The notes below the pieces were generated by a model, which worked only from the letters and a program-made list of their open reading frames with translations, was not told where the DNA came from and did no database searches. A program made the translations under genes and the position numbers. 55,206 bases of DNA from an uncultured Dehalococcoidia bacterium (GTDB taxonomy: Bacteria; Chloroflexota; Dehalococcoidia; GIF9; UBA5629): positions 1 through 55,206 of the forward strand of contig CAIMUM010000139.1 in NCBI GenBank assembly GCA_903844685.1, written 5' to 3'. Positions 10,314-17,290 of the stretch are shown here, piece after piece. Each line of letters begins with the position of its first letter. Position 1 is the stretch's first letter.

Positions 10314-10373
10314 GGGCGTACCTTCAGGTGCGCCCGAATCCACCATCGGGCGGGTTTGAAAACCCGGCCCTAC
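10310..10373. repeat. Composite palindromic repeat, copy 2, between convergent genes
   Basis: Unit A' (10310-10335) is an exact reverse complement of unit A at 262-287 over 26 bp. Unit B' (10348-10373) is a near copy of the reverse complement of unit B. Both outer ends read GTAGGG inward. The left GTAG supplies the TAG stop of the TPR lipoprotein (10311-10313), and the right one supplies, on the minus strand, the TAG stop of the alpha/beta hydrolase (10372-10370). It probably forms hairpins in both transcripts. Confidence 0.85.
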
Positions 10374-11005
10374 AAAACATCCCTGAAAAAGCCTGCCACC
10401 CTGTCCGCCATAGGTCCCTCGTAACCTCCCCAGAAGTGGTCGGCGCCTTTAATTATCTGGCACGTTTTAGGCTCCGCTGCATCTCTGCCATATTGCTCTA
10501 CTTCGGAGACAGGCGCCATATCATCATTGCCGCCGCCTATGATCAGCTTGGGTTTGTGGCAGCTCCTCAATAAAGCGGTCGGCGGACTCTCGAAATAGGG
10601 CGAAATAAGCGCCACTCCTTTTACCCTCTCGTCCGAGCAGGCCACCGGCAGGGCCACACCGCCGCCGAACGAATACCCTACCAGTCCCAGCCTGCCTGTA
10701 TCAACATTCTGCTGTCCCTGCAGCCAGTCGAGCGCAGCCGCGATATCCTGCTGCTCGGAGCTCCCGCCGCTGTGCCTGCCCCCGCTTCTGCCCACACCGC
10801 GGAAGTTGAAGAGCAGCGCGGCCATACCCGATTTCACCAGCGCATCGGCGACTGCATAAGTGACGTTGTTGTGCATCGACCCGCCGTAGAGCGGATGGGG
10901 ATGGCAGACGACAACCGCCGGGGCGGGTTCCTTCGCTTCGATGCCATAGTAAAGCCCCTCCAGCGTGATATCGCCGCAGGGGAAGGTGATGTGCCGCGGC
11001 TTCAT
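10370..11005 (-). CDS. Alpha/beta hydrolase (dienelactone hydrolase-like)
   Basis: The 211-residue protein contains 'VVVCHPHPLYGGSMHNN' near the oxyanion loop, the nucleophile elbow 'GYSFGG' (Ser), an Asp in 'GGGNDDMAP' and the catalytic His in 'GADHFWGG', the complete triad of small alpha/beta hydrolases of the YqiA/DLH-like CocE-NonD type. The start at ATG 11005 overlaps the rarA stop (ATGA) and is preceded by 'GAAGGA', so translation is likely coupled; the track start at 11032 lies inside rarA. It is the last gene of the tubulin-like/rarA/hydrolase unit. The substrate is unknown. Confidence 0.87.
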   Translation of the reverse strand: MKPRHITFPCGDITLEGLYYGIEAKEPAPAVVVCHPHPLYGGSMHNNVTYAVADALVKSGMAALLFNFRGVGRSGGRHSGGSSEQQDIAAALDWLQGQQNVDTGRLGLVGYSFGGGVALPVACSDERVKGVALISPYFESPPTALLRSCHKPKLIIGGGNDDMAPVSEVEQYGRDAAEPKTCQIIKGADHFWGGYEGPMADRVAGFFRDVL

Positions 11006-12378
11006 TCCTTCTTGTCCATCCGCGCGCCCCACCAGGCCCTTAGACGTGCCAGCACGGTCTTCTCGAAGCCCTGCTCGGTGGGGAAATAGTATCGCCTGCC
11101 TTTCATGGCATCCGGCAGGTTCTGCTGCTCAACGAAATGACCCTCGTATTCATGGGCGTATTTGTAACCTTTCCCGTACCCCAGGTTCTTCATCAGACCG
11201 GTCGGGGCGTTGCGCAGGTGCAGGGGCACGGGGTCGTTGCGTGTTGTTTCCACGTCCTTCTGCACGCGCCCGTAGGCGGTGTACAGGGAATTGCTCTTGG
11301 GCGCGGTGGCCAGGTAAACCACGGCCTGCGCCAGCGCCAGGTTGCCCTCCGGCATGCCCACGAAATGTACGGCCTGCTGTGCCGCCACGCAGACCACCAG
11401 CGCCTGGGGATCGGCCATGCCCACATCTTCGGAGGCGAAGCGTATCAGCCGGCGCACGATGTAGAGCGGGTCCTCGCCGGCCTCCAGCATACGCCCCAGC
11501 CAGTAGAGGGCGGCGTCGGGGTCGGAGCCGCGCAATGTCTTGTGCAGGGCGGAGATGAGATCGTAATGCTGCTCGCCGGCCTTGTCGTAGAGCAGCGCCC
11601 GCTTCTGCATCGACTCCTCGATATCGTTCAAAGCGACTTGCCTGCCGCCGTCGGCGCCAGGCCTGACGGCACGGGCCGCCATCTCAAGCGCATTAAGCGC
11701 CACCCGCGCGTCGCCGTTGGCCATGCTGACCAGCGTCTGCAGGGCATCCGGCGCCAGGTCAACTTTTAAATCCGCCAGCCCGTTTTCAGCGTCCGCCAGG
11801 GCACGCTCGACGATGGTCCGGACGTCGTCATCCGGCAGCGCATTGAGTGTATAGACGCGGCAACGTGAGAGCAAGGCCGAGATGACCTCGAAGGAAGGGT
11901 TCTCGGTAGTAGCGCCGATGAAGGTTACCTCACCGTTCTCGACATAAGGTAGTATGGCGTCCTGCTGCCCCTTGTTGAAACGGTGTATCTCGTCGATGAA
12001 GAGGATGGTGCGCTGTGCGGTCAGCTTCCTGCGTTTGCGGGCCTCGTCGACAACGCGGCGCAGGTCGGCCACGCCGGCGGTGACCGCGCTCATCGGTACG
12101 AAATAGGAGCTCGAAACGTTGGCAATGACCTGCGCCAGGGTGGTCTTGCCGCTGCCGGGTGGCCCCCATAGGATGACGGACGGTAGCTGGTCTGATTCGA
12201 TGGCCTTGCGCAGCACCTTGCCCTCGCCGATGATATGCTGCTGTCCTACGTATTCGCCGAAATTGCGCGGACGCATGCGCGCCGCCAGGGGCATTGTGGA
12301 ATTGTCGGCAGGCTGCTGCCTGTCCCCGGCTTCCTTATTCCCTCTCAGGTCGGGAGAGCCGAGGTCAAACAGGGTCAT
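11002..12378 (-). CDS. rarA: Replication-associated recombination protein RarA (MgsA/WRNIP1 family AAA+ ATPase)
   Basis: The protein starts with a short disordered stretch and then 'MPLAARMRPRNFGEYVGQQH', the RarA hallmark. Walker A is 'GPPGSGKT', Walker B 'FIDEIHRF', and sensor 1 lies in 'GATTENPSFEV'. The C-terminal clamp-loader-like helical region ('HKTLRGSDPDAALYWL') completes a normal 458-residue protein. RarA acts at stalled replication forks and on single-strand gaps, binding SSB and DNA ends. The start overlaps the tubulin-like gene by ATGA (12375-12378) and the stop overlaps the hydrolase start, forming a three-gene coupled unit. Confidence 0.95.
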   Translation of the reverse strand: MTLFDLGSPDLRGNKEAGDRQQPADNSTMPLAARMRPRNFGEYVGQQHIIGEGKVLRKAIESDQLPSVILWGPPGSGKTTLAQVIANVSSSYFVPMSAVTAGVADLRRVVDEARKRRKLTAQRTILFIDEIHRFNKGQQDAILPYVENGEVTFIGATTENPSFEVISALLSRCRVYTLNALPDDDVRTIVERALADAENGLADLKVDLAPDALQTLVSMANGDARVALNALEMAARAVRPGADGGRQVALNDIEESMQKRALLYDKAGEQHYDLISALHKTLRGSDPDAALYWLGRMLEAGEDPLYIVRRLIRFASEDVGMADPQALVVCVAAQQAVHFVGMPEGNLALAQAVVYLATAPKSNSLYTAYGRVQKDVETTRNDPVPLHLRNAPTGLMKNLGYGKGYKYAHEYEGHFVEQQNLPDAMKGRRYYFPTEQGFEKTVLARLRAWWGARMDKKE

Positions 12379-13484
12379 GGCTGCGGCGTCTCTTTTTGCC
12401 TGAGTTCTTCCACCGCTTTTGAAGCCCGCTCGTAGTAATCCTTGATCTTGTCCAGGTAGGTGATGCGCGATGCAATGAGTGTCACGGAGGCGTGGTCCTT
12501 GACCCCATAGAAATCGCCGCCCCTCACCTCGCCATTATTGGTCAACTCGCGCATGCGGTTGCCCACCGACCGCGCCATGTTGATATTGGCATTCTTGCCG
12601 GGCACGCAGAGGAGGTAAAGCGCCTTGCGGGCATCCTCCATACGGCATTGAATGGAGAAGTGGGCGAGGGCTGAACTCATGGCCTCCATGGCTTTGACTG
12701 TTTCCTCACCCTTGCTCTCGAAATGGTCACCGCGCTTGAAGAGCGAAAGACCGTATGAGGATATCTGCGCCTTGCCGTACCCGATGGCGGTCCAGCCGTT
12801 GAGCGACTGCACGATGTCGCCGATGCCGATATTGCTGGTGCCCAGGAATTTCGGGTCGACCTTCTCGCTGGCGCGCAGCAGGTCGAAGAATGGCGTCACG
12901 ATCTCGCGGTTGAGAGCGTCATTGGAGGCCGCCGATTTGATGCTGGCTTCCGACATCACCTTCTCGTTGTCAAAGAGGAATATAGCATCGGCGGTTTTAT
13001 CGATGGATTTAAGGCACAGCGCGGTGTTGTAAACATAGGCGGGCACATTGCTCTCAGCGGTCAGCGGCAGGACGATCAGGGCATATACGGGCTTATTCAC
13101 GTACCTTTCCTTGAACTTCCGCGCCAGTATGGATATGCCGCCGGACCCCACGCAGCCTGCGCTGCTGGCCACCAGCATGAAAGCGTCCGTCTCAAAGAAT
13201 TCCCCGGCGCGCATGGTGGCCAGGCACCGGTCACCGTTGGCGCGCATCACCTCCGCCCCCGCCTCGGACTCCCTGCCAGACCCGATGGGCGCCGGCAACT
13301 GTATGGTGATCAGCTTATCTCCGACCTTGCGTAGGGCGTTCAATTGCGCCGGGTCGTCATTAATAGCATAGGAGCGCACCAACACGTCCACGCCGGTCTC
13401 AGCCCTGGCGCGGTTCGCCAGCCGCACGAACTCCGCCGCGATATTGCTGCCACAATCGCCTATCCCGATGACCACCAGCTTCAT
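12375..13484 (-). CDS. Divergent tubulin/FtsZ-superfamily GTP-binding protein
   Basis: The 369-residue protein has tubulin/FtsZ nucleotide-binding loops: T1 'GIGDCGSN' (7-14), T3-like 'INDDPAQ' (41-47), the tubulin signature loop T4 as 'SSAGCVGSGG' (107-116, instead of GGGTGTG), and the base-contact helix 'NDALNREIVTPFFDLL' (188-203). The T7 synergy loop that normally carries NxDxxD reads 'GTSNIGIGDIV' (215-225); on my alignment neither catalytic Asp is kept, so GTP hydrolysis on polymerisation may be lost. It is not the main FtsZ. ATG 13484 has 'GGAGG' upstream. It is coupled by ATGA to rarA. Its role (filament, DNA positioning or membrane) is not known. Confidence 0.8.
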   Translation of the reverse strand: MKLVVIGIGDCGSNIAAEFVRLANRARAETGVDVLVRSYAINDDPAQLNALRKVGDKLITIQLPAPIGSGRESEAGAEVMRANGDRCLATMRAGEFFETDAFMLVASSAGCVGSGGISILARKFKERYVNKPVYALIVLPLTAESNVPAYVYNTALCLKSIDKTADAIFLFDNEKVMSEASIKSAASNDALNREIVTPFFDLLRASEKVDPKFLGTSNIGIGDIVQSLNGWTAIGYGKAQISSYGLSLFKRGDHFESKGEETVKAMEAMSSALAHFSIQCRMEDARKALYLLCVPGKNANINMARSVGNRMRELTNNGEVRGGDFYGVKDHASVTLIASRITYLDKIKDYYERASKAVEELRQKETPQP

Positions 13485-13610
13485 ATCTTTTGCCTCCGGT
13501 CGGTCCCGCGCACGGGCAAGATTGCCGGCTGGCGAATTTCAGACAGAAAAGTCCAACGCATACCCTTGTTATATACCATAACAGATAGAGGATGTCATGG
13601 CAACCGTCTT

Positions 13611-14126
13611 TTACCTGTAGCGCCTGACTTCGAAGCGATATAGCTTGACAGGTTCCGAAGGCATGATGCCCGCCTTCTGGCGGCAGATGGATATCTGCAT
13701 GTCCACACTGTCGACGCCCTCCAGGTCCGGCAGCAGCAGGCCCCTGCGGCGGCCGGCTGCCACGATAACCCCGTATTTTTTCGCATCAAGCAGCGTCCTG
13801 TCTTCCACCGGCTCGGGATGTGTCAGGATATCAACGCTGTAATCGAGGATATCGAGCTCACCAGTACCGACCGGGCTGAACCGCGGGTCACCGGTAGCCG
13901 ATGATATGGCATTGCGGATTATCTCCTCCGCTACGCTCGGCTGCGTGGGCTCGAAGGTGCCGATGCAGCCGCGCAATTGCCCGTGCTTCTTGAGTGAAAC
14001 GAACACGCCGGCCCGCTCCTTCATCTCCGGCGATAGCTCACCCGGGCTGATCACTTCGTGCTTTTGCACATAGCTTTCCACTGCCCTTCTGGCTAACTGC
14101 ACCAGGGGATGCGCTTTCTTTTCCAT
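13611..14126 (-). CDS. amrA: AmmeMemoRadiSam system protein A (AMMECR1 family)
   Basis: The protein contains '[21 protein letters not shown]' and '[11 protein letters not shown]', diagnostic of AMMECR1 proteins, whose 'LRGCIG' motif is nearly invariant. The start is ATG 14126 with 'AGAGGTG' upstream (171 aa); the track start at 14288 overlaps the MEMO gene and is not supported. It follows amrB by 11 bp and amrS, making the classic A/B/radical-SAM set. The function of the system is not settled; co-occurrence suggests a radical SAM-dependent modification in which A and B take part. Confidence 0.92.
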
Positions 14127-14137
14127 ATTTGCACCTC

Positions 14138-14944
14138 TTACCTGCTGACTATTATGCCGGCGTAGCCCACCACGCTGGAGTAATCCCCCGAGCTGTCGCC
14201 GCTGGTCTGGTATTTGACCAGCTCGGCTTTCTTCGCTCCCAGTTCCTTTGCAGCGGTTATCATGCTGATGACCGGGGCGTAGCCGCACATGCTGATATCG
14301 TGTTTGGCGATGCGCCTGACCAGCTCATCCGAGTCGAGGTTGAGTATGGCCTCAATGGCCAGCTTGTCCTTGGCTTTGGCTTTCTCTTGCGGCTCGTAAT
14401 GGGTCATATCGCTGCTGGCCACGATGATGGCCTCCTCGCCGGCCTCCTTGAACCCCTTGACAACCGCCCGGCCTATCTCCTCATAAACATCGGGGTGCGC
14501 AATTGACAGTACGATGGGGACTATCTTCACGCCAGGTTTGAAATATTGCAGGAAGGGCACCTGCACCTCAAGTGAATGCTCATAGTGGTGCGCCAGCGTA
14601 TCTTCCTCCAGGCGCCCCGATGCCTTGAGTATCGCCCCGGCCAGTTCGGTATTGATCTCCACCTCGCCCAGCGGCGTCCTCCACCTGCCCGACGTGGTGA
14701 TGCTGAAAGGCTTGCCCGCCCCGCGGTGGTTGGGGCCAATCAGGATGAAGGTATCGGTGAACTTTATGCGAGAGAAGACCGCACCGGCCACCGGCCCTGA
14801 GTAGATGTAGCCGGCATGCGGTGATACCACCCCTACTGCATCTATTTTGGCCTTCTCACGCGAGGTCATGTATTCAATGGTCTCCTTCAGCTCCTCCGGC
14901 CAGGCCGGGTAGAATTGTCCCGCAACCGCAGCTTCCCTGATCAT
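14138..14944 (-). CDS. amrB: AmmeMemoRadiSam system protein B (MEMO1 family)
   Basis: This MEMO family protein (268 aa) is related in fold to class III extradiol dioxygenases. Characteristic stretches are '[12 protein letters not shown]', '[18 protein letters not shown]', '[13 protein letters not shown]' and '[16 protein letters not shown]'. His residues in 'SPHAGY', 'EHSLEVQ' and 'DMTHYEP' fit the metal or active-site positions of the family. I set the start at ATG 14944, which overlaps the amrS stop (ATGA). The ORF track start at 14995 lies in amrS. It is expected to act with AmrA and AmrS. Confidence 0.92.
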
Positions 14945-15984
14945 GGTTTCACCCCTGTTTTTATGGTATTCCTGATATTCAGGTCGGCGCCGCACCGGGC
15001 GCAGCTTGAACCCCTGACGCCGGTCACTTTTATATCATAACCCACCCGCTCGATAGCCATATTGCCGCATTTATAGCAGACGGTGTTCTCATATTTGTGC
15101 CCCGGTACGTTGCCTGTGTAAACGAAGCGCAACCCGGCTTCCCTGCCGATTTTATAGGCCCTCTCCAACGTGGCCACCGGTGTAGGCGGGATATGCAGCA
15201 GCCCGCGGTGCGGATGAAAGCGTGTTACATGCCAGGGCGTAAGTTCGCCCAGCTTCTCCTTTATCCATCCGGCGATGCCGGTTAATTGCTCATCGTCGTC
15301 ATTCAGCGAGGGGATGATATTGGTCACTACCTCGATGTGCATATCCCACCTGTCTTTGGCCCGCTCGGCCGTTTCTAATATACCGCGCCAGTGCTTCACC
15401 TTCGCCAGTCCCTGGTACAATTTATCGGAGTAACCCTTGACGTCCACCCGCCAGGCATCAAGGTAAGGCCCGATGACGTCCAGCGCCTCGGGTGTCATGT
15501 AGCCGTTGGTGACATATACCGTGTAAAGACCGCTTTGGTGCGCCTGCCTGGCTGAATCGAGCGTGTATTCGAACCAGATGGCCGGCTCGTTGTAGGTCCA
15601 GGCCAGCCCGGCGCAGCCGTTCTCTTCGGCCATCTTGACAGCCTCGCGCGGCGTTACCTCGCGCAGGGCATGCCGTGCAGAGGCAGGATCGTCGACGCAG
15701 GCTATCTCCCAGTTCTGGCAATGAATGCAGTGGAAATTGCAGCCGACCGTGCCGAAGGAGAGCACGGAGCTGCCGGGGAAGAAATGGAAGAGCGGCTTTT
15801 TCTCGATGGGGTCGGCGGCTAACGAGGAGACTTTGGCATAATTGAGCAACTGCAGGGACCCTTTTTCGTTACGCCTCACGCCGCATACACCGGCCTTACC
15901 CGGATTAATCCGGCAGCGCCACAGGCAAACGTTGCAGCACACCCGCCTGTTATCCAGCCTGTCGTAAAGCAGAGCCTCCGCCAT
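14941..15984 (-). CDS. amrS: AmmeMemoRadiSam system radical SAM enzyme
   Basis: The 347-residue protein has the radical SAM motif C82-x3-C86-x2-C89 in 'GCNFHCIHCQNW', which binds the [4Fe-4S] cluster that cleaves SAM. An N-terminal Cys cluster ('CCNVCLWRC', plus 'GVCGVRR') and a C-terminal pair of CxxC motifs ('CYKCG', 'CARCG') are typical of this family, related to pyruvate formate-lyase activating enzymes. It heads the amrS-amrB-amrA operon behind an extended -10 promoter. The target of the radical chemistry is not known. Confidence 0.93.
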   Translation of the reverse strand: MAEALLYDRLDNRRVCCNVCLWRCRINPGKAGVCGVRRNEKGSLQLLNYAKVSSLAADPIEKKPLFHFFPGSSVLSFGTVGCNFHCIHCQNWEIACVDDPASARHALREVTPREAVKMAEENGCAGLAWTYNEPAIWFEYTLDSARQAHQSGLYTVYVTNGYMTPEALDVIGPYLDAWRVDVKGYSDKLYQGLAKVKHWRGILETAERAKDRWDMHIEVVTNIIPSLNDDDEQLTGIAGWIKEKLGELTPWHVTRFHPHRGLLHIPPTPVATLERAYKIGREAGLRFVYTGNVPGHKYENTVCYKCGNMAIERVGYDIKVTGVRGSSCARCGADLNIRNTIKTGVKP

Positions 15985-16195: not shown

Positions 16196-17290
16196 ATGAA
16201 ACTCACTATTAGTGTAATCAAGGCTGATATAGGTGGATGGGTGGGACATTGCAGCATGCACCCGGACCTGATGGCAGAAGGCGAGACCTGCATGGCTAAG
16301 GCTAAGAAGTCCGGGCTGCTCATCGATTACCATGTCACCCGCTGCGGCGACGACCTGCAGTTCATCATGACTCACAAGCACGGCATCGACAATAGCAAGG
16401 TCCACGAGATGGCCTGGAATGCTTTCAAGAGCTGCACCGCCATCGCCAAGAAATTAAAACTGCATGGCGCGGGACAGGACCTGCTCTCGGACGCCTTCTC
16501 CGGCAACGTCAAGGGCCAGGGGCCGGGCGTGGCCGAGATGGAAATCGACGAGCGCGAGGCAGAGCCGGTCATCGTCTTCATGGCCGATAAGACGGCCTCC
16601 GGCGCATGGAATCTGCCGCTTTACTCGATATTCTGCGACCCCTTCAACACCATCGGCCTGGTTATCTCCTCCAATATGCACGCGGGCTTCAAGTTCGAAG
16701 TGCATGACGTCAAAGAGAGCAAACGCATCATCTTTGACTGCCCCGACGAGATCTACGACATGCTCGTCTTCATAGGGGCGCCGTCACGCTATACGGTTAA
16801 GTCGGTTTATTCCCGCGAAACGGGTGAGATAGCTGCTACCTCATCCACGCAAAAGCTGTCCCTGCTTGCCGGGCGCTACGTGGGCAAGGATGACCCCGTC
16901 TGCATCGTGCGGGCGCAGGGCATCTTCCCGGCGGTCGGCGAAGTATTGGAGCCTTTCGCCCGGCCGCACATCGTGGAAGGCTGGATGCGCGGCTCGCATA
17001 ACGGCCCGCTCACACCCGTGTCGGTGAAAGGATGCAACCCCACGCGTTTCGACGGCCCGCCGCGCGTTATCGCCGCAGGCTTCCAACTCGCTGAAGGCAA
17101 GCTGGTGGGACCGGTCGACATGTTCGACGACGTGGCCTTCGACAATGCCCGGCAGCAGGCCATGGACATGGCCGATATGCTCAGGCGGCACGGCCCCTTC
17201 GAACCCCACCGGCTGCCTCTGGACGAGATGGAATATACCACCATGCCGCAGGTTATGAAAAAGCTGGCCAAACGCTTCGAGAAGCTTTAA
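16196..17290 (+). CDS. fbp: Fructose 1,6-bisphosphate aldolase/phosphatase (archaeal type, class V)
   Basis: The 364-residue protein matches the bifunctional FBP aldolase/phosphatase of archaea and deep-branching bacteria, which joins triose phosphates and dephosphorylates the product, making gluconeogenesis unidirectional. It opens 'MKLTISVIKADIGGWVGH', with the Asp and His used for Mg binding, and has 'RCGDDLQFIMTH'. The Schiff-base Lys and partner Tyr are seen as Y199-x2-K202 in 'SRYTVKSVYS'. 'AAAGGAGG' precedes the ATG. rdgB starts 8 bp downstream, suggesting cotranscription. The upstream 180 bp show no convincing promoter. Confidence 0.95.
   Translation: MKLTISVIKADIGGWVGHCSMHPDLMAEGETCMAKAKKSGLLIDYHVTRCGDDLQFIMTHKHGIDNSKVHEMAWNAFKSCTAIAKKLKLHGAGQDLLSDAFSGNVKGQGPGVAEMEIDEREAEPVIVFMADKTASGAWNLPLYSIFCDPFNTIGLVISSNMHAGFKFEVHDVKESKRIIFDCPDEIYDMLVFIGAPSRYTVKSVYSRETGEIAATSSTQKLSLLAGRYVGKDDPVCIVRAQGIFPAVGEVLEPFARPHIVEGWMRGSHNGPLTPVSVKGCNPTRFDGPPRVIAAGFQLAEGKLVGPVDMFDDVAFDNARQQAMDMADMLRRHGPFEPHRLPLDEMEYTTMPQVMKKLAKRFEKL

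Follow-up and report, generated by a model that had tools for sequence, protein, structure and literature searches.

A divergent and conserved CetZ-like tubulin paralogue encoded beside rarA in Dehalococcoidia

Gene organization of the tubA locus

The window, the whole 55,206-nucleotide stretch of DNA analysed here, comes from an uncultured Dehalococcoidia bacterium (contig CAIMUM010000139.1) and encodes a tubulin-superfamily protein that we term TubA. TubA is a modified CetZ-like paralogue, both real and conserved, whose gene lies between an AmmeMemoRadiSam operon and rarA. Hereafter, TubA denotes this divergent copy, and TubB denotes the well-conserved CetZ-like copy of the same genome. The features of the locus are as follows.

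10370 to 11005, reverse strand: alpha/beta hydrolase (dienelactone-hydrolase-like); likely ATG at 11005, giving a 4-nt overlap with the rarA stop
11002 to 12378, reverse strand: rarA, RarA/MgsA-type AAA+ ATPase of 458 amino acids (MgsA_C 1.7e-73, AAA_assoc_2 3.3e-27, AAA)
12375 to 12378, reverse strand: ATGA overlap of 4 nt, the TGA of tubA lying over the ATG of rarA
12375 to 13484, reverse strand: tubA, divergent CetZ-like tubulin-superfamily protein of 369 amino acids, with T1 GIGDCG, T4 AGCVGSG, T7 NIGIGD and no C-terminal tail
13485 to 13610, reverse strand: AMMECR1-tubA gap of 126 nt, with space enough for a putative promoter of its own
13611 to 14126, reverse strand: AmmeMemoRadiSam system protein A (AMMECR1), the neighbour found most consistently upstream of tubA
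14138 to 14944, reverse strand: AmmeMemoRadiSam system protein B (MEMO), from profile matches
14941 to 15984, reverse strand: AmmeMemoRadiSam radical SAM enzyme, from profile matches

The initial annotation described a tubulin-fold protein whose stop overlaps the start of rarA, with rarA in turn overlapping a hydrolase. This layout is confirmed: the open reading frame (ORF) of tubA is intact, and both overlaps are 4 nt, the second when the hydrolase is read from its likely ATG rather than from the alternative GTG at 11032. The ATGA overlap would likely couple the translation of tubA and rarA. RarA/MgsA is identified in Pfam by the AAA+ core together with the MgsA_C region. Divergent from the AmmeMemoRadiSam operon, positions 16196-17290 encode a bifunctional-type fructose-1,6-bisphosphate aldolase/phosphatase, and the same adjacency is kept in several relatives.

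TubA derives from the CetZ-like family

TubA scores above the Pfam cut-offs for both Tubulin (PF00091; E = 1.8e-24, 87.6 bits against 33) and CetZ_C (PF21011; E = 1.6e-11, 44.4 bits against 21.6). In a phmmer search of solved structures, its best matches are Haloferax CetZ1 (4b46) and CetZ2 (4b45). The AlphaFold2 model of TubA is confident (predicted local distance difference test, pLDDT, 90.3; predicted template modelling score, pTM, 0.91), and Foldseek places CetZ2, CetZ1 and Methanosaeta CetZ (4b45, 4b46 and 3zid) at ranks 1-3 for this model; CetZ structures are likewise on top for TubB. TubZ follows at rank 4 for TubA. While TubA shares the tubulin fold with TubZ and PhuZ, it has neither partition genes nor a phage context, and it clusters inside the chromosomal CetZ-like family.

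The genome contains three tubulin-superfamily genes, namely ftsZ beside ftsA (C177), tubB (C231) and tubA, which is separate from the ftsA-ftsZ pair. With FtsZ, TubA shares the fold, the T7 Asn and the second T7 Asp. That TubA is a second FtsZ is ruled out by the tree and by its score of 27 bits with the FtsZ equivalog model TIGR00065, for which the cut-off is 295.2.

CetZ-like proteins of Chloroflexota-Dehalococcoidia have been reported previously (Santana-Molina 2023, PMC9871819), and thus the family itself is not new. In a sample of 400 genomes of the phylum, the CetZ_C domain was found in Dehalococcoidia only, and many members of this class encode FtsZ together with one to three CetZ-like proteins. 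These distribution data come from genome samples; one scan of GTDB contigs gave close relatives and one distant match only. Although TubA has the tubulin GTPase domain, CetZ_C and the structural matches of a CetZ protein, it differs from CetZ and CetZ-like proteins by a Gln-to-Asp change in T1, a shortened T3, a degenerate T4, and the absence of the first T7 acid and the tail. Since T1 and the signature loop are not intact, we file TubA as a non-canonical, divergent paralogue derived from the CetZ-like family.

The second T7 acid is retained

The T7 loop reads INLDFADI in the FtsZ of the same genome, VVDSSEI, VVDTSEV and VTDLGDF in CetZ structures, and SNIGIGDI in TubA. In this alignment, Asn218 of TubA is the T7 Asn, Gly220 takes the place of the first Asp, and Asp223 is the retained second Asp/Glu, located at the start of helix H8 directly after T7 in the AlphaFold2 model. 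The equivalent residue of Escherichia coli FtsZ is Asp212, and the passage of PMC8142252 that cites its mutant gives a reduction of GTPase activity to 7% for D212A. Among the 27 TubA rows, position 220 is Gly in 17 and Asp in 10; position 223 is Asp in 25 and Glu in 2, and hence acidic in all 27. The other Dehalococcoidia CetZ-like proteins (n = 93) have Asp at the first T7 position in 89 cases and at the second in 92. Most TubA proteins have therefore lost the first T7 acid, whereas the catalytic second one is kept throughout.

The initial annotation read the signature loop as SAGCVGSGG and T7 as SNIGIGDIV, both correctly, and took the acids of the NxDxxD motif to be lost. The loss of the first acid (Asp to Gly220) stands, but since Asp223 aligns with the catalytic Asp/Glu of FtsZ and CetZ, the claim of catalytic loss is half wrong. 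An acid is present at the catalytic site in the alignment, an outcome that the initial annotation had itself named as refuting its claim, and comparison with 129 relatives, with CetZ structures and with the FtsZ of this genome rules out the loss of both aspartates. We found no literature on CetZ T7 mutants within the library searched.

Two further observations concern this loop. One CetZ-like copy (L100, genome G256) carries Asn as the second T7 acid (ADFGN), the sole such loss among the 129 CetZ-like rows. Within TubA, position 220 is Gly in the earliest-branching members (L050, L052 and L055; G219, G123 and G082) and Asp in a nested basal clade of 10 rows, a pattern that may be due to regain of the acid, to gene conversion from TubB or to repeated loss.

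The nucleotide pocket is altered on one side

Conserved columns (n = 106) were defined as those at least 90% conserved in 87 main-family rows. The TubA subclade of the window retains 66 of them and basal TubA retains 77; the columns lost in the window's subclade include Gln10, the T3 loop GHGVGK, Gly111, Thr112 and Asp220. In T1, Gln10 is replaced by Asp, giving GIGDCG where the canonical motif is GxGQxG. The T3 loop is shortened and scrambled, and the T4 motif GGTGSG has become AGCVGSG (within SAGCVGSGG), including G111C and T112V, which leaves no intact GGTGSG/T signature. Elsewhere in the family, the residues missing from T1, T3 and T4 show a conservation of about 100%, contrary to the earlier statement that the nucleotide-binding loops are kept.

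These losses cluster on what we take to be the γ-phosphate side of the pocket, based on general knowledge of tubulin and FtsZ structures, while Asn173 and Asn192 on the base side and Asp223 are kept. Of the impaired GTP cycle that had been proposed, the nucleotide cycle is probably altered, but through residues on the γ-phosphate side and not through the catalytic T7 acid. New conserved residues specific to TubA are also present. As a parallel to TubA, family f16 has independent degenerate CetZ-like paralogues (L110, L111 and L112) with the T4 sequence GGTAAG, in which the first T7 acid and the tail peptide are lost.

TubA lacks the C-terminal tail peptide

In other Dehalococcoidia CetZ-like proteins, a helical linker at the C-terminus leads to a conserved terminal peptide, for example KDIPSLL, which resembles the C-terminal conserved peptide of FtsZ (SLDVPSFLRR in the FtsZ of this genome). 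A relaxed pattern of the tail is found in 89 of 93 main-family proteins, but in none of the 27 TubA proteins, none of 9 deep-branching relatives, and only 5 of the 1082 other ORFs of the fetched loci, which served as the background. The tail is present in TubB and in the majority of Dehalococcoidia CetZ-like proteins (e.g., L049:6337-7515, L064, L134 and L142). FtsZ and TubB of the same genome have the same kind of tail peptide, and TubA is without it.

A published report of a CetZ-like tail peptide was not found. As judged from the sequences, the resemblance to the FtsZ peptide may reflect either homology or convergence, and the bacterial CetZ-like tail may link to FtsA or other partners of the FtsZ tail. 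An ftsA gene is present beside ftsZ, and SepF, considered as a partner of the tail, had no match in the 78%-complete genome of the window.

TubA arose by duplication and is under purifying selection

In a tree of 69 rows (LG+C20), TubA forms one clade with support of 100/100, and TubB of the same families forms one clade with support of 99/99. TubA descends from the Dehalococcoidia CetZ-like family through a duplication in the ancestor of families f1, f3 and f4 or earlier in the order. The stem of the window's TubA subclade is long, at about 0.69 changes per site, and the branches within the subclade are short. This pattern of a burst followed by constraint is expected after a change of function.

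The ratio of nonsynonymous to synonymous substitution rates (dN/dS) is 0.055-0.085 for TubA, 0.044-0.076 for rarA and 0.050-0.084 for TubB, with synonymous sites near saturation for the most distant pairs. Since this ratio is low and comparable to that of rarA, TubA is functional and under strong purifying selection. The ORF is intact in nearly all genomes; one basal copy, from a draft assembly, has an internal stop. Taken alone, the long stem branch and the lost motifs would suit a decaying, pseudogene-like duplicate, but the low dN/dS refutes this explanation, the intact ORFs and new conserved residues also speak against it, and we give it practically no credence.

A second CetZ-like copy occurs in 25 of the 28 TubA genomes. 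In several members of the order (e.g., L050, L052, L054, L055 and L074), this copy is convergent and located 2-8 kb past the tubA cluster, a position that seems to fit a local duplication. TubB and its counterparts in family f2 are convergent, at nine loci, with a small ORF and a solitary gene whose product looks like a terminase large subunit. The match of the terminase-like gene to Terminase_6C is just under the cut-off (6.9e-4), and its conservation is order-wide, with no other phage genes noticed.

Probable insertion of tubA into a pre-existing AMMECR1-rarA pair

Nearly all family f1 genomes with TubA share the order radical SAM, MEMO, AMMECR1, tubA, rarA and hydrolase. In 26 of the 28 TubA genomes, the first same-strand gene upstream of tubA is AMMECR1, the exceptions being a contig edge and genome G695, and rarA lies directly downstream of tubA on the same strand in about 25 of the 28. 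Within the window's subclade, tubA and rarA overlap by 4 nt or are separated by at most about 10 nt wherever both are on the contig, while the gaps are 39-520 nt in several basal TubA genomes. The tubA-rarA adjacency is not unique to this genome, an outcome that would have refuted the initial annotation; in the family of the window, essentially all TubA genomes have it as far as their contigs extend.

However, the pairing is not independent of an older synteny. In the sister family f2, 20 genomes have AMMECR1 just upstream of rarA without an intervening tubulin gene (gaps from 20 nt; e.g., G067, G166, G291 and G097), and in 22 genomes from 8 other Dehalococcoidia families the two genes share a strand and lie no more than 2.5 kb apart. 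Among the latter are complete family f16 genomes, whose CetZ-like genes lie elsewhere. Genomes G082 (98% complete) and G123 (94% complete), which represent two lineages, keep AMMECR1-tubA, and no rarA was found in them at E ≤ 1e-50. The simplest and most likely reading is that tubA was inserted into an ancient AMMECR1-rarA pair. Because this pair is older and class-wide without a tubulin, the tubA-rarA pairing says little in favour of a shared function. The association with rarA is for the most part a matter of inherited position. The data do not point to a dedicated replication-fork system, and the suggested role in positioning forks or chromosomes finds no support in anything tested. Our searches returned no literature on CetZ with RarA and nothing helpful on the AmmeMemoRadiSam system.

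CetZ-like genes of other lineages have neighbourhoods of their own. In the main lineage (seven loci), the order is enolase, HGD-D-like, GAPDH, cetZ-like, dnaX, ybaB, recR and recO, with the cetZ-like gene directly upstream of the clamp-loader gene. A weak rarA match beside these genes, considered as ruvB or a second rarA, is dnaX of this operon; the names dnaX, ybaB, recR and recO were assigned by reading the sequences, without a profile search. In a second lineage (nine loci), the cetZ-like gene is convergent with a gene for an alanine-rich, coiled-coil-looking protein of about 570 amino acids that has no Pfam match and is often accompanied by a charged partner of about 145 amino acids. These may be filament-associated proteins.

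Proposed role of TubA

We consider TubA to be a neofunctionalised CetZ-like duplicate whose most likely role is to join TubB or FtsZ in their filaments or to cap these, an interpretation built on sequence and analogy that we hold tentatively, at a confidence slightly short of probable. TubA would not be a self-sufficient, tail-anchored filament former. In FtsZ filaments, the T7 loop enters the nucleotide pocket of the next subunit and initiates hydrolysis (PMC8456036). By analogy, the T7/H8 face of TubA with Asp223 would dock on the GTP of a TubB (or FtsZ) subunit and trigger hydrolysis, whereas the altered T1/T3/T4 pocket would not offer a normal GTP cycle to the next subunit. TubA would thereby restrain or turn over the filaments, as tail-less FtsZ1 does with FtsZ2. 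Plant FtsZ1 is without the C-terminal peptide of FtsZ2 and restrains FtsZ2 assembly (PMC8142252). The chloroplast pair likewise consists of two paralogues of which the tail-less one can tune the filaments of the other (PMC8142252), but it belongs to the FtsZ family, its FtsZ1 is a functional GTPase, and co-assembly is shown there and inferred for TubA. Expression with rarA would be a positional effect of the insertion, possibly exploited later for co-regulation.

Several points weigh against this proposal. In the window's genome, tubA and tubB occupy different loci and give no indication of being co-transcribed, and a second copy is missing from three TubA genomes, which are drafts, although one is 96% complete. 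A functional link of TubA with RarA may also exist, given the tight tubA-rarA spacing throughout the window's subclade, and the degenerate GTP pocket could mean a different ligand.

Alternatively, TubA may still polymerise by itself into a CetZ-like filament, with slow catalysis, and act in cell shape or motility like archaeal CetZ. The entire CetZ fold, predicted with high confidence, and the retained Asp/Glu223, Asn173 and Asn192 are in line with this view, but it must accommodate the lost T1 Gln, T3 loop and T4 Thr/Gly as well as the loss of the tail peptide that would link to a membrane adaptor, and we regard it as unlikely, if still credible. The steadier association of tubA with AMMECR1 than with rarA, together with the residues newly conserved in TubA, would suit a fold that no longer works as tubulin and has been recruited within the AmmeMemoRadiSam operon, where it might, for example, serve AMMECR1, MEMO or the radical SAM enzyme as substrate, scaffold or ligand-binding partner. 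Since the conserved catalytic T7 acid and base-side residues fit a retained longitudinal contact, and AmmeMemoRadiSam loci of other families have no tubulin at all, such recruitment seems improbable.

A dedicated TubA-RarA unit, in which TubA is a cytoskeletal scaffold that positions RarA on stalled forks or links division to replication stress, is more doubtful still. The same-strand adjacency, its tightness in the window's subclade and the location of other CetZ-like genes of the class directly upstream of dnaX-ybaB-recR can be cited for it; the ancestral AMMECR1-rarA proximity, the two genomes with tubA beside AMMECR1 and no detected rarA, and the wide gaps in basal genomes tell against it.

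Returning to co-assembly or capping by TubA, its most elaborate form would be a two-subunit CetZ cytoskeleton in Dehalococcoidia. TubB would be plugged by its FtsZ-type tail into the FtsA-based division machinery, TubA, as a tail-less donor of the T7 acid unable to cycle GTP, would cap or restrain TubB, and RarA-coupled translation would link the filaments to replication stress. We regard this full scheme as highly improbable. Bacterial CetZ-like proteins are barely noted in the literature searched. If their FtsZ-like tail peptide is genuine, bacterial division adaptors may connect to a cytoskeleton of CetZ type, and tail-less TubA, with its T7 acid retained and its pocket altered, is a natural separated-function variant that may serve to probe how one subunit affects tubulin-family filaments.

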